DNA from: Chloroflexota bacterium
Lineage (GTDB): Bacteria > Chloroflexota > Limnocylindria > Limnocylindrales > CSP1-4
Direction of reading: 5' to 3'
Length of the DNA: 39,071 nt
Assembly (NCBI GenBank): GCA_025358525.1
Contig: JANYJI010000111.1
Location: 1 to 39,071, forward strand
The position numbers and the translations under genes are program-made. Numbering within the stretch: the first letter of the stretch is position 1; each line of letters begins with the position of its first letter. Below the pieces are notes generated by a model that had not been told where the DNA came from, searched no databases, and saw nothing but the letters and a program-made list of their open reading frames with translations. This document shows, piece by piece, positions 10,533-13,230 of the stretch.

Positions 10533-11635
10533 GAGCGTTCGCCCACACCGACCGTGTTGCGTAGGATGGCCGTGCGCAGAGCCTCGATGACCTGCTGCTG
10601 CTCGGCCTCAGTCAGGCCGGGGTACATCGGCAGTGACATGCTCGCGGCCGCCGCGGCGTCGGTGACCGGCAGATCCGCGTCCAGGCCGAGTTCCATGACG
10701 TAGGCCTGGCGGTGGCACGGGATCGGGTAGTAGATCCCGCAGATCACTCCCGCATCCTTCATCTCGGCCACGATCTGGTCGCGCGCCTCGCCCACGCCCA
10801 GGGTGTACTGGTGGTAGACGTGAGTGCGGCCTTCGGGGCAGATCGGAAGCTGAACCGGAAGGTCGGCGAAGGCCGCGTCGTAGCGGCGAGCGATCGCCTG
10901 GCGGCGGGCCGTGTTGCGCTCGAGCTTGTCGAGCTGAACGAGCCCGATCGCCGCCGCGATGTCTGTCATTCGGAAGTTGTAGCCCAGGATCTCGTGGTGG
11001 TAGCGCTCTCGCATGCCCTGATTGCGGTACATCTTGATCCAGTCGGCCAGCCGATCGTCGTTAGTGTTGACGAAGCCGCCCTCGCCGGTGGTCATGTTCT
11101 TGGTGCCGTACAGGCTGAAGGCCGCGTGGCCGAAGCCGCCGGACCGCCGGCCGCGGTACATCGCGCCGTGAGCCTGGCAGGCATCCTCGACCACCGCCAG
11201 TCCGTGGCGGTCGGCGATGGCCCCGATGGCATCCATGTCGGCGATTACGCCGAAGAGGCTGACCGGGCAGATGGCTCTCGTACGGGGTGTGACCGCGGCC
11301 TCGATGCGGCCGGCGTCCATGAGGTACGTGTCCGGCTCGATGTCGACGAAGACCGGCGACGCGCCGGTAAACAAGATCGAACTGACCGTCGCATTGAAGG
11401 TGTGGGAGACGGTGATGACTTCGTCGCCGGGGCCGAGGCCCAGACCGGCGAAGATCGACATCAGCGCGACCGTGCCGTTGGACAGGGCGATGGCGTGCTT
11501 GGCACCGCAGAAGGCGGCCCAGCGCTCCTCGAACTCGGCGACCTTACGACCCTGAGCGATCATGCCGCTCTTTAGTACTTCGGTTACGGCGGCGATCTCC
11601 TCGGGGCCTAAATCGGGGCGAGCTGGCGGGATCAT
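10529..11635 (-). CDS. DegT/DnrJ/EryC1 PLP-dependent sugar aminotransferase (WbpE/WlbC-like)
   Basis: Transfers an amino group, usually from glutamate, to a keto sugar nucleotide. The family's N-terminal D-L-G-P-E-E...V-L-K-S-G is present. SHTFNATVSSILFTGASPVF, VEDACQAHGAMYRGRRSGGF and SLYGTKNMTTGEGGF follow; the Lys in the last is the PLP Schiff-base residue. LGYNFRMTDIAAAIG and YPIPCHRQ complete the set. The ATG at 11635 overlaps the acetyltransferase stop as ATGA and gives 368 residues, normal for the family. The frame is open to 12547, but that extension runs through the acetyltransferase gene and has no protein-like character. In this operon it most likely aminates C3 of the keto sugar made by the neighbouring oxidoreductase. 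Confidence 0.92.
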   Translation of the reverse strand: MIPPARPDLGPEEIAAVTEVLKSGMIAQGRKVAEFEERWAAFCGAKHAIALSNGTVALMSIFAGLGLGPGDEVITVSHTFNATVSSILFTGASPVFVDIEPDTYLMDAGRIEAAVTPRTRAICPVSLFGVIADMDAIGAIADRHGLAVVEDACQAHGAMYRGRRSGGFGHAAFSLYGTKNMTTGEGGFVNTNDDRLADWIKMYRNQGMRERYHHEILGYNFRMTDIAAAIGLVQLDKLERNTARRQAIARRYDAAFADLPVQLPICPEGRTHVYHQYTLGVGEARDQIVAEMKDAGVICGIYYPIPCHRQAYVMELGLDADLPVTDAAAAASMSLPMYPGLTEAEQQQVIEALRTAILRNTVGVGERS

Positions 11636-12294
11636 GCTGAGACTCCTGTGCTCGAGGCGGGTCGCTCCACCAGCGAACCGATTTGCAAACTGAACACGTA
11701 GACTCGGCCGCATCGCGGACAGGCGAGGGCTGCGTCGGACGTGGGACTTGGGGCGGCGTTGGCCCCACTGGAGTCGGCCAGCCGAGCTCCGCAGGCACAT
11801 ACCCAGCCGAGGCGCCGAGCCGGATTTCCGACAACGAGGGCGTAGTCGGGAACGTCGCGGGTCACAACTGAACCGGCTCCCACCGTGGCGAACCGGCCCA
11901 CCGTGACGCCAGCCACAACAACGGCTCCCGCGCCGATCGAGCAGCCTTCTCGAAGTTCGATGGGGCTGATCGTCCAATCGTCGCCACGGGCAAGCTCGCC
12001 GGTGGCGGTGACGGCACGCGGGTATCGATCGTTGGTTAGGATCGCGCCCGGGCCGATGAAGACGCCATTGCCGACGCTCACTCCGTGGTAGATGAGGGCT
12101 CCGTTCTGAACCTTGACGCGATCGCCGAGGCTGACCCCGGCATCGATGAAGGCATCCCGGCCGATGACGCACTCCGACCCCAGACTGACACCGCTGCGCA
12201 GCACAGCGCGATTCCATACGTCCGTGTGGGGCCCGACGCTGACGTCGGCTTCGAGCTCTGCCGACGCGTGAACCCGCGCCGTGGGGTCGATCAC
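11632..12294 (-). CDS. Left-handed beta-helix N-acetyltransferase with C-terminal zinc ribbon (WbpD/WlbB-like)
   Basis: Hexapeptide-repeat acyltransferase of 220 residues. Repeats such as IGRDAFIDAG, VKVQNGALIYHGV and IGAGAVVVAGVTVG fill roughly residues 1-150. N-D-R-Y-P-R and the terminal VVGNPARRLGW follow the WbpD pattern. After this comes C-A-C-G-A-R-L and, about 25 residues later, C-P-R-C-G, a complete four-Cys zinc ribbon. The GTG start at 12294 has AGGAG at 12305-12301, six bases upstream, an excellent Shine-Dalgarno. It probably acetylates the 3-amino group of UDP-GlcNAc3NA with acetyl-CoA. First gene of the five-gene sugar cassette, with a 177 bp gap upstream that could hold a promoter (TATACT at 12365-12360). 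It overlaps the aminotransferase by 4 bp. Confidence 0.9.
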   Translation of the reverse strand: MIDPTARVHASAELEADVSVGPHTDVWNRAVLRSGVSLGSECVIGRDAFIDAGVSLGDRVKVQNGALIYHGVSVGNGVFIGPGAILTNDRYPRAVTATGELARGDDWTISPIELREGCSIGAGAVVVAGVTVGRFATVGAGSVVTRDVPDYALVVGNPARRLGWVCACGARLADSSGANAAPSPTSDAALACPRCGRVYVFSLQIGSLVERPASSTGVSA

Positions 12295-12471: not shown

Positions 12472-13230
12472 TCAGCTCCGGCGGCGAAGACGAAGCAGCC
12501 CGGCCGCAACGGCCATTCCGGCTCCGAGGGCGAGGGCTGCGCGCCAATCCAGCACGGTCCGAACGTTGCCCTCCACCTTACGGGCAATCAGCATGAACGT
12601 TCCCGCCGGACCCTCGAAGGTGACGTTGCCTGCGACGACCGCCTGCGCGCCACCCTGACGGATTCGCACATCTCGAGCAAGGACGGTCCGCGCGAACCCC
12701 TGGGTCAACGAGACTTCGTTGCCAACGACAAGACCGACCGCGCCGAGTTCCACTGAGATGCGGTCGCCCCGAGCGATACCGACGCCCCCCAGTCGGACGG
12801 CAATGTCGTCGGCTTGAGCCTGGCCGATGCCGCCCATTGACACGCTGATGTCCTCGGCCGATGCGGCGCCGATACCGCCCTGGGTGACGCTGATGGACTC
12901 GGCCTCGACCTCGCCAGCCCCACCCTGAGTAATTGTCACGCTGGTGGCCTCGACGCGGTGACCGCGTGGCTCAGGCGCCACGACCGTGTGGGGCGTGGCG
13001 GCGGGTCTCGATGCAGGGCCGATGGGCTGGGCCTCCGAGGCGAGGGCAGCCGCTTTGGCTGTGGCTTTGGCTGTGGCTTTGGCCGGGGCCTTGGCTGTGG
13101 CTTTGCCCGGGGCCGTTCGTCGCGCCCGCACCGGCTTCGGCATATCCGGCTCCGCGGCTTTGCTGGTGGTCCGCCTTACGGTTTCGCGGCCTGACTTCGC
13201 CGCGCTATCGTTGCCCGGCTCCTCGCTCAT
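12472..13230 (-). CDS. Unrecognised protein: basic Lys/Ala tail, eight 15-residue GG repeats (beta-solenoid-like), C-terminal membrane anchor
   Basis: I do not recognise this family. The ATG at 13230 has GGAG eight bases upstream and gives 252 residues. Residues about 40-62 form a histone-H1-like stretch of K-A-T-A-K units. Residues about 97-216 are eight consecutive 15-residue repeats without gaps, for example SISVTQGGIGAASAE, DISVSMGGIGQAQAD, DIAVRLGGVGIARGD and RISVELGAVGLVVGN. The last three are more degenerate. The pattern of alternating hydrophobics, a small-residue turn at positions 7-8 and an acidic residue or Asn at the end fits a beta-solenoid with one repeat per turn or half turn. 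Residues about 228-247 form a hydrophobic segment followed by R-L-R-R-R-S, so the bulk probably faces the cytoplasm. It lies between rfbC (132 bp gap) and the acetyltransferase (177 bp gap) in the glycan block. A bactofilin-like scaffold is one analogy, not an identification. Confidence 0.85.
   Translation of the reverse strand: MSEEPGNDSAAKSGRETVRRTTSKAAEPDMPKPVRARRTAPGKATAKAPAKATAKATAKAAALASEAQPIGPASRPAATPHTVVAPEPRGHRVEATSVTITQGGAGEVEAESISVTQGGIGAASAEDISVSMGGIGQAQADDIAVRLGGVGIARGDRISVELGAVGLVVGNEVSLTQGFARTVLARDVRIRQGGAQAVVAGNVTFEGPAGTFMLIARKVEGNVRTVLDWRAALALGAGMAVAAGLLRLRRRS
13052..13113. repeat. 12 bp tandem repeat coding for the K-A-T-A region
   Basis: About five copies of a 12 bp unit (GGCTTTGGCTGT on the plus strand, with substitutions in later copies) lie inside the 15-residue-repeat gene and encode the Lys/Ala/Thr-rich stretch. 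Copies are imperfect but in frame. Confidence 0.85.

Follow-up and report, generated by a model that had tools for sequence, protein, structure and literature searches.

The window analysed here, by which we mean the whole 39,071-nucleotide stretch of Chloroflexota DNA, carries on a single strand, in this order, mreB, mreC, rmlA, rmlB, rmlD and rmlC, followed by the gene that is the subject of this report (Table 1). Downstream of it lie genes for a WbpD-like acetyltransferase, a WbpE-like aminotransferase and a WbpB-like Gfo/Idh oxidoreductase, and next for a UDP-sugar dehydrogenase (UGDH), a WbpI-like 2-epimerase and a glycosyltransferase. A first-pass annotation of the sequence had marked the same reading frame without giving its strand; the frame was confirmed here and assigned to the minus strand. 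That annotation had also set the gene between the rhamnose genes and the diacetamido-uronate genes, as is indeed the case in the window, and "just downstream of mreBC"; mreBC does lie upstream, but four rml genes intervene. The neighbouring WbpD-like acetyltransferase has a C-terminal extension bearing a zinc-ribbon-like motif (CxCG...CxxC), which is present in 42 of the 45 relatives checked; to our knowledge, canonical WbpD-type enzymes do not have such an extension.

Table 1. Features of the solenoid gene and of its downstream neighbour, in window positions.
Feature	Positions	Strand	Evidence or remark
Whole gene, encoding a 252-aa tail-anchored 15-residue beta-solenoid protein (tail anchor predicted)	12472..13230	-	ATG at 13230, stop 12474-12472; single copy, conserved in relatives
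Disordered Lys/Ala/Pro-rich N-terminal tail, residues 1-92	12955..13230	-	AlphaFold2 pLDDT mostly 49-66; composition; dN/dS 0.55
12-bp tandem DNA repeat, 4.5 copies, encoding the KATAKAPAKATAKATAKA stretch of the tail	13052..13105	.	Probably a slippage-prone linker
Predicted right-handed beta-solenoid, residues 93-220: eight regular 15-residue coils (94-213) and a closing coil	12571..12954	-	Period z 12.3; AlphaFold2 pLDDT 93-97; right-handed solenoids superpose at 2.1-2.7 Å
Membrane-junction motif VEGNVRTVLDWR, residues 219-230	12541..12576	-	G221, D228, W229 and R230 unchanged in all sampled sequences, Limnocylindrales to Nitrospirota
C-terminal Gly/Ala-rich hydrophobic helix, residues 229-251; probable tail anchor	12478..12546	-	Stop after RLRRRS; AlphaFold2 helix and hydrophobic segment; resembles ElaB/YqjD tail anchors (PMC5525287)
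WbpD-like hexapeptide N-acetyltransferase with C-terminal zinc-ribbon-like extension	11632..12294	-	Next gene downstream in most same-family relatives

Judged by comparison with its relatives, the solenoid gene is real, single-copy and conserved, and it is under purifying selection, since the median dN/dS across the window's genus is about 0.24 for the solenoid and helix. A whole-genome search of its own genome and 60 relatives recovered exactly one copy in each of 35 genomes, made up of 21 of the 21 in the window's genus and 14 of the 16 in other genera of its taxonomic family (hereafter the window's family), and, at the same sensitivity, no copy in relatives outside that family. The two family genomes that do not have the gene are 62% and 66% complete. 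No sigma-70-like promoter was found near the gene, a result that is uninformative for this organism.

The core of the protein consists of eight consecutive 15-residue units in strict register over about residues 94-213, in agreement with the eight unbroken repeats proposed in the first-pass annotation. In order, the units are EATSVTITQGGAGEV, EAESISVTQGGIGAA, SAEDISVSMGGIGQA, QADDIAVRLGGVGIA, RGDRISVELGAVGLV, VGNEVSLTQGFARTV, LARDVRIRQGGAQAV and VAGNVTFEGPAGTFM, and they follow the pattern x-A-x-x-(I/V)-x-(V/I)-x-(Q/M/L)-G-(G/A)-(I/V/A)-G-x-(A/V). Self-similarity of the window protein exceeds that of shuffled versions of its residues by 12.3 sd at a lag of 15 and by 7.0 sd at a lag of 30, while every other lag from 5 to 30 reaches at most 2.5 sd.

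AlphaFold2, run on a 33-sequence alignment, predicts strands over residues 93-220, with a pLDDT of 93-97 for most of the solenoid, which then runs straight into a helix at residues 229-251; the N-terminal tail is modelled with low confidence. A deeply diverged member of the family from Nitrospirota, modelled from a separate alignment of 23 sequences, has the same predicted architecture, with strands at 28-40, 43-55, 58-70 and 73-85, exactly 15 residues apart, and a helix at 138-159 after them. Both models thus bear out the earlier suggestion of a beta-solenoid that makes one turn per 15-residue unit. Neither model has a Foldseek match in the PDB at E <= 0.001 (the spruce budworm antifreeze protein, 1m8n, is among the weak matches), although a weak or missing match of this kind does not imply a new fold. 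VIA-align superposes the window model on the tapirin 6n2b over 127 residues at 2.1 Å, on HxuA (4i84) over 142 residues at 2.4 Å, and on 94 of the 103 residues of the bactofilin BacA (2n3d) at 2.2 Å (Z 10.1), and the Nitrospirota model on 94 residues of the same BacA structure at 2.4 Å (Z 10.2). We take the predicted solenoid to be right-handed, because right-handed solenoids superpose on it at about 2 Å and left-handed hexapeptide enzymes come no closer than about 10-11 Å. Since this right-handed fold is common to many of the proteins that superpose, including HxuA, tapirins, adhesins and pectate lyases, the fold alone is no pointer to a bactofilin function.

The most conserved stretch of the protein lies outside the repeats, at the junction ARxVEGxVRxLLDWRxALAxG, which is found in Limnocylindrales, in an Ardenticatenia record and in Nitrospirota. 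Within it, all 18 sequences of a sample share A216, G221, D228, W229 and R230. In the wider Chloroflexota the junction turns into VxGxV...(D)x(R/K), again with a hydrophobic helix after it and basic residues at the end. The sole hydrophobic segment of the window protein is C-terminal, at about residues 230-248 by hydrophobicity, and it coincides with the predicted helix, so that the single membrane segment that had been noted after the repeats is borne out. Every member with a complete C-terminus has an equivalent of this Gly-rich segment with its positive end, WRAALALGAGMAVAAGLLRLRRRS. Two loci from a large-genome lineage (L173 and L189; 4.7-5.8 Mb) have a solenoid followed by apparently two hydrophobic helices and not one. 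No residue of the solenoid is invariant in the broad alignment, and in particular no polar one, on which ground an enzyme reading was rejected. Taken together with the conserved membrane junction, the lack of invariant solenoid residues fits a structural role better than an enzymatic one, and we regard a structural role as probable by a good margin.

Members of the family were found far beyond the window's own relatives. A profile search places them in 116 of 400 Chloroflexota genomes, spread over many families, a count whose weak end includes some false matches, and a search with a Nitrospirota query in 60 of 246 Nitrospirota genomes. Carriers have one gene each, save for split matches and for a handful of Chloroflexota genomes in which two places match, and profile-profile comparison makes the Chloroflexota and Nitrospirota alignments homologous with 99.6% probability. 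Several of the carrier genomes searched are single contigs close to completeness, so carriers in culture or enrichment may exist. The window protein, 33 members and 24 diverse members drew only stray weak matches from Pfam, NCBIfam, PHROG and PDB sequences, in line with the remark in the first-pass annotation that no named family has this layout. Among these were LptD_N/LptA matches at E 0.003-0.035 in two of the 24 diverse members, which probably reflect chance resemblance between short beta repeats, and Lpt proteins are not among the structural matches listed. When weak matches of the family profile, among them some in sister families, were opened by hand, a distant homology to bactofilins was rejected as their explanation: those in families f3 and f4 (G545, G522) and in several distant families turned out to be a solenoid with a tail helix, except for those in G478 and G388, which were unrelated transporter-like ORFs. 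A phage origin was likewise rejected, as a profile scan of viral contigs found no relative. Our search of the open-access literature found no description of a beta-solenoid with a tail anchor, or of a 15-residue-repeat beta-helix of such a layout. The window protein has a tandem 15-residue solenoid directly before a junction of the family form VxGxV-(L/F)D-x-(R/K), and then a C-terminal hydrophobic helix with a basic end. On this sequence evidence it belongs to a large, unannotated family of predicted tail-anchored beta-solenoids that spans Chloroflexota and Nitrospirota.

The position of the gene in the window had led to the suggestion that its product scaffolds the enzymes of glycan assembly, and a dedicated adaptor of this kind would tether the WbpD, WbpE and WbpB (or the rhamnose) enzymes to the membrane by the glycosyltransferases. 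Within the window's family the survey of homologous neighbourhoods gives this idea some substance: of the 59 loci whose downstream sequence is long enough, 43 have WbpD immediately after the solenoid gene, two more have it one gene further on, and four have WbpE next. The order WbpD-WbpE-WbpB-UGDH-WbpI is retained down to about 35-45% solenoid identity, and WbpD is itself a solenoid enzyme. Against this, the rhamnose genes adjoin the solenoid gene in only 7 of the 59 loci, and 12 family genomes in which the solenoid gene has no WbpD neighbour keep it without a WbpD or WbpB ortholog anywhere. Their best matches are Gfo/Idh enzymes at about 30% and GlmU-type domains at about 35%, whereas WbpD in the positive control (G023) reaches 61%, and two of these assemblies (G014 and G036) have completeness values of 91% and 93%. 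Beyond the window's family the linkage is absent and the neighbours differ wholly: several Chloroflexota lineages have eno-larB-larC or larB-larC, others have the gene for ribosomal protein L25, and Nitrospirota have the order response regulator-valS-solenoid gene-nadC, continued in some genomes by purM, an M23 peptidase and a bactofilin. Because 12 family genomes keep the solenoid without the pathway and the neighbours change outside the family, the glycan setting is, as far as gene content and order can tell, a local arrangement and not the function of the solenoid. A general or dedicated role as a glycan scaffold is thus not supported, and we consider the adaptor unlikely. The Chloroflexota loci L165, L167-L170, L176 and L177 illustrate these settings, in which the solenoid gene adjoins or is near larB and/or larC, genes of the nickel-pincer cofactor, often after enolase, or in other lineages adjoins the L25 gene.

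Some of these same neighbours bear on a second alternative, in which the protein would be a monomeric tail-anchored platform that, like YqjD, tethers cytosolic complexes such as ribosomes or translation factors to the membrane. The E. coli tail-anchored proteins ElaB and YqjD have a glycine-rich C-terminal helix followed by a positive patch that ends in di-arginine (PMC5525287), which is the style of anchor predicted here, and translation genes adjoin the solenoid gene in Nitrospirota (valS) and in several Chloroflexota lineages (L25). Pfam, however, detects no similarity to DUF883, the ElaB/YqjD profile, in the window protein or the members searched. Moreover, the neighbours vary by lineage to include larBC, nadC and sugar genes, and the basic tail is not conserved, so a ribosome tether of this type appears improbable.

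The anchor also raises the matter of topology. In the window protein and its relatives no signal peptide-like or Tat-like N-terminus was seen, and the Nitrospirota forms begin with 5-20 polar residues and then pass directly into the solenoid. With a single C-terminal helix, this arrangement supports the proposal in the first-pass annotation that the solenoid sits at the inner face of the membrane, and a cytosolic solenoid on a C-terminal tail anchor is, we think, the probable topology by a good margin of confidence. An awkward point is that the terminal Arg patch would then be outside, which the positive-inside rule disfavours. An exported cell-surface solenoid, acting as an adhesin or a wall-linked spacer with the helix as a membrane stop, would place this patch inside in agreement with the rule, and right-handed solenoids of surface proteins (HxuA, tapirin and a DUF2807-type adhesin) superpose well on the model. 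Yet such a protein would have to export an N-terminal domain of about 220 residues without any signal, which would be unusual, and we therefore find an exported solenoid quite unlikely.

Least convincing is the proposal that a histone-like Lys/Ala tail contacts nucleic acid or phospholipid, which is very improbable as the basis of function: the window tail is indeed Lys/Ala-rich (net charge +9, 25% Ala, 18% Lys+Arg), but among 33 members, one of them with its N-terminus cut by a contig end, the tail ranges from 25 to 122 aa in length and from -26 to +13 in net charge, it is absent in Nitrospirota members, and its core in the window is encoded by the 12-bp tandem repeat. By sequence it reads as a flexible, hypervariable and fast-evolving linker, with a within-genus median dN/dS of 0.55, against 0.24 for the solenoid and helix. 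The most acidic tail, with EDDEDDEDD, belongs to L027 (G031:C47), where an in-frame TAG and an apparent frame change precede the anchor, possibly through an assembly error.

We compared the protein with bactofilins, one of the closest known systems. A right-handed beta-solenoid core is predicted in it, as in bactofilins. Bactofilins carry a short N-terminal membrane-targeting peptide, and a transmembrane helix at the N-terminus is present in only about 3.2% of them (PMC12448750); the window protein has no such N-terminal element, its hydrophobic segment being C-terminal. Neither it nor any of 24 diverse members matches PF04519, and hhalign gives a probability of 1.1% against the bactofilins of related genomes in two comparisons. 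As far as sequence goes, it is not a bactofilin.

No bactofilin was found in the window's own genome, and PF04519 is absent from 34 of the 35 solenoid carriers of its family. Counted by genomes, bactofilins occur in 1 of 37 in the window's family, in 0 of 19 in the order's small-genome sister family and in all five relatives from sister families of the class, although the contrast between the window's family and the sister families comes close to being a single phylogenetic contrast. In Nitrospirota the two genes occur together in 46 of the 60 carriers (counted by hand), so that mutual exclusion was rejected as a general rule. It is possible that the solenoid replaced bactofilins in the window's family, as a local event and not as a general rule. 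The stronger statement, that this is a second solenoid cytoskeletal family, unrelated in sequence to bactofilins and tail-anchored, which took over the bactofilin role in Limnocylindrales, seems doubtful to us. At least 8 of the 60 Nitrospirota carriers have a bactofilin gene within about 3.5 kb of the solenoid gene, with an M23 peptidase gene just upstream of it in the loci examined. In L120, L127 and L131 the intervening genes include nadC and purM, and the distance from the solenoid gene down to the bactofilin is about 3 kb.

The reading we prefer is that the protein is a tail-anchored cytosolic solenoid that acts as a bactofilin-like, self-assembling membrane scaffold, to which we assign a probability of roughly 0.45. 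What computation shows is the gene with its repeats and its conservation, together with a predicted fold and a predicted anchor helix; topology, self-assembly, scaffolding and clients we infer. The chain would fold into a stiff right-handed rod of about 8-9 fifteen-residue coils, the last of which would lead through the invariant VEGxVRxLLDWR junction into the Gly/Ala-rich C-terminal helix with its terminal Arg patch. This helix would enter the cytoplasmic membrane post-translationally and leave the rod on the cytosolic side, at the inner face, where rods could stack or pack laterally to form membrane-attached patches or filaments, and these in turn may locally organise envelope-associated machinery in the manner of bactofilins. 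Stacking or lateral packing would be the most likely mode of action because the solenoid has no conserved polar residues of the catalytic-site kind and no N-terminal cap is predicted on it. The lack of such a cap usually leaves the end of a solenoid sticky. Self-assembly, whether end-to-end or by lateral packing, stands at about even odds in our estimate, and the organisation of envelope machinery is a more tentative step.

Gene neighbourhoods speak on both sides of the scaffold reading. In its favour, envelope or cytoskeleton genes adjoin the solenoid gene in two separate lineages, that of the window, with mreBC-rml and sugar genes, and that of Nitrospirota, with the M23 peptidase and bactofilin. 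Against it, the genes beside it in lineages beyond the window's family are mostly housekeeping ones (valS, nadC, larBC and L25) without an envelope theme, and the complementarity with bactofilins is largely that of one clade and does not hold in Nitrospirota.

The main new point is the unnamed, two-phylum family of tail-anchored 15-residue solenoids itself. If the predicted architecture is right, such a family, carried by about a quarter of the Chloroflexota and Nitrospirota genomes sampled, can be treated as a defined entity whose mechanism is open to test, in bearers that are mostly uncultured and whose envelopes and shapes are poorly understood. Should the protein polymerise, it would be an independent way of building a membrane-bound solenoid scaffold that needs no nucleotide, with a bearing on envelope organisation in lineages without bactofilins. 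Even without polymerisation it would provide a clean case of a C-tail-anchored beta-solenoid, and the glycan-specific reading of the locus is corrected.

Set beside known systems, the protein shares single traits with several. The LbH acyltransferases and the 15-residue insect antifreeze solenoids are, like it, beta-solenoids of short repeats, but the LbH enzymes are left-handed and superpose at the far larger distance given above; consistent with the first-pass annotation's claim of no named family, pentapeptide-repeat and hexapeptide (LbH) profiles, like that of the bactofilins, do not match the protein, whose period is 15 and not 5 or 6. Adhesin-type solenoids (DUF2807/DUF4097, tapirin and HxuA) have the same handedness and superpose at 2.1-2.7 Å over 127-142 residues, yet they are exported, whereas the window protein has no signal peptide or Pfam match; as the DUF2807/DUF4097 profile does not match it either, the superposition on 3ljy is a resemblance of fold only. 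With ElaB and YqjD it shares the absence of a signal peptide and the Gly-rich C-terminal helix with a positive end, and it differs in that its soluble part is a beta-solenoid. Its likeness to the bactofilins (PF04519; BacA, CcmA and BacM) extends to a predicted right-handed rod of similar length with flexible ends, a probable cytosolic location and membrane association, and, in some genomes, M23 peptidase and morphology genes nearby; it is set apart from them by coils of 15 residues with a QGG(I/V)G signature and by an anchor that is a C-terminal helix in place of the short N-terminal peptide of bactofilins.
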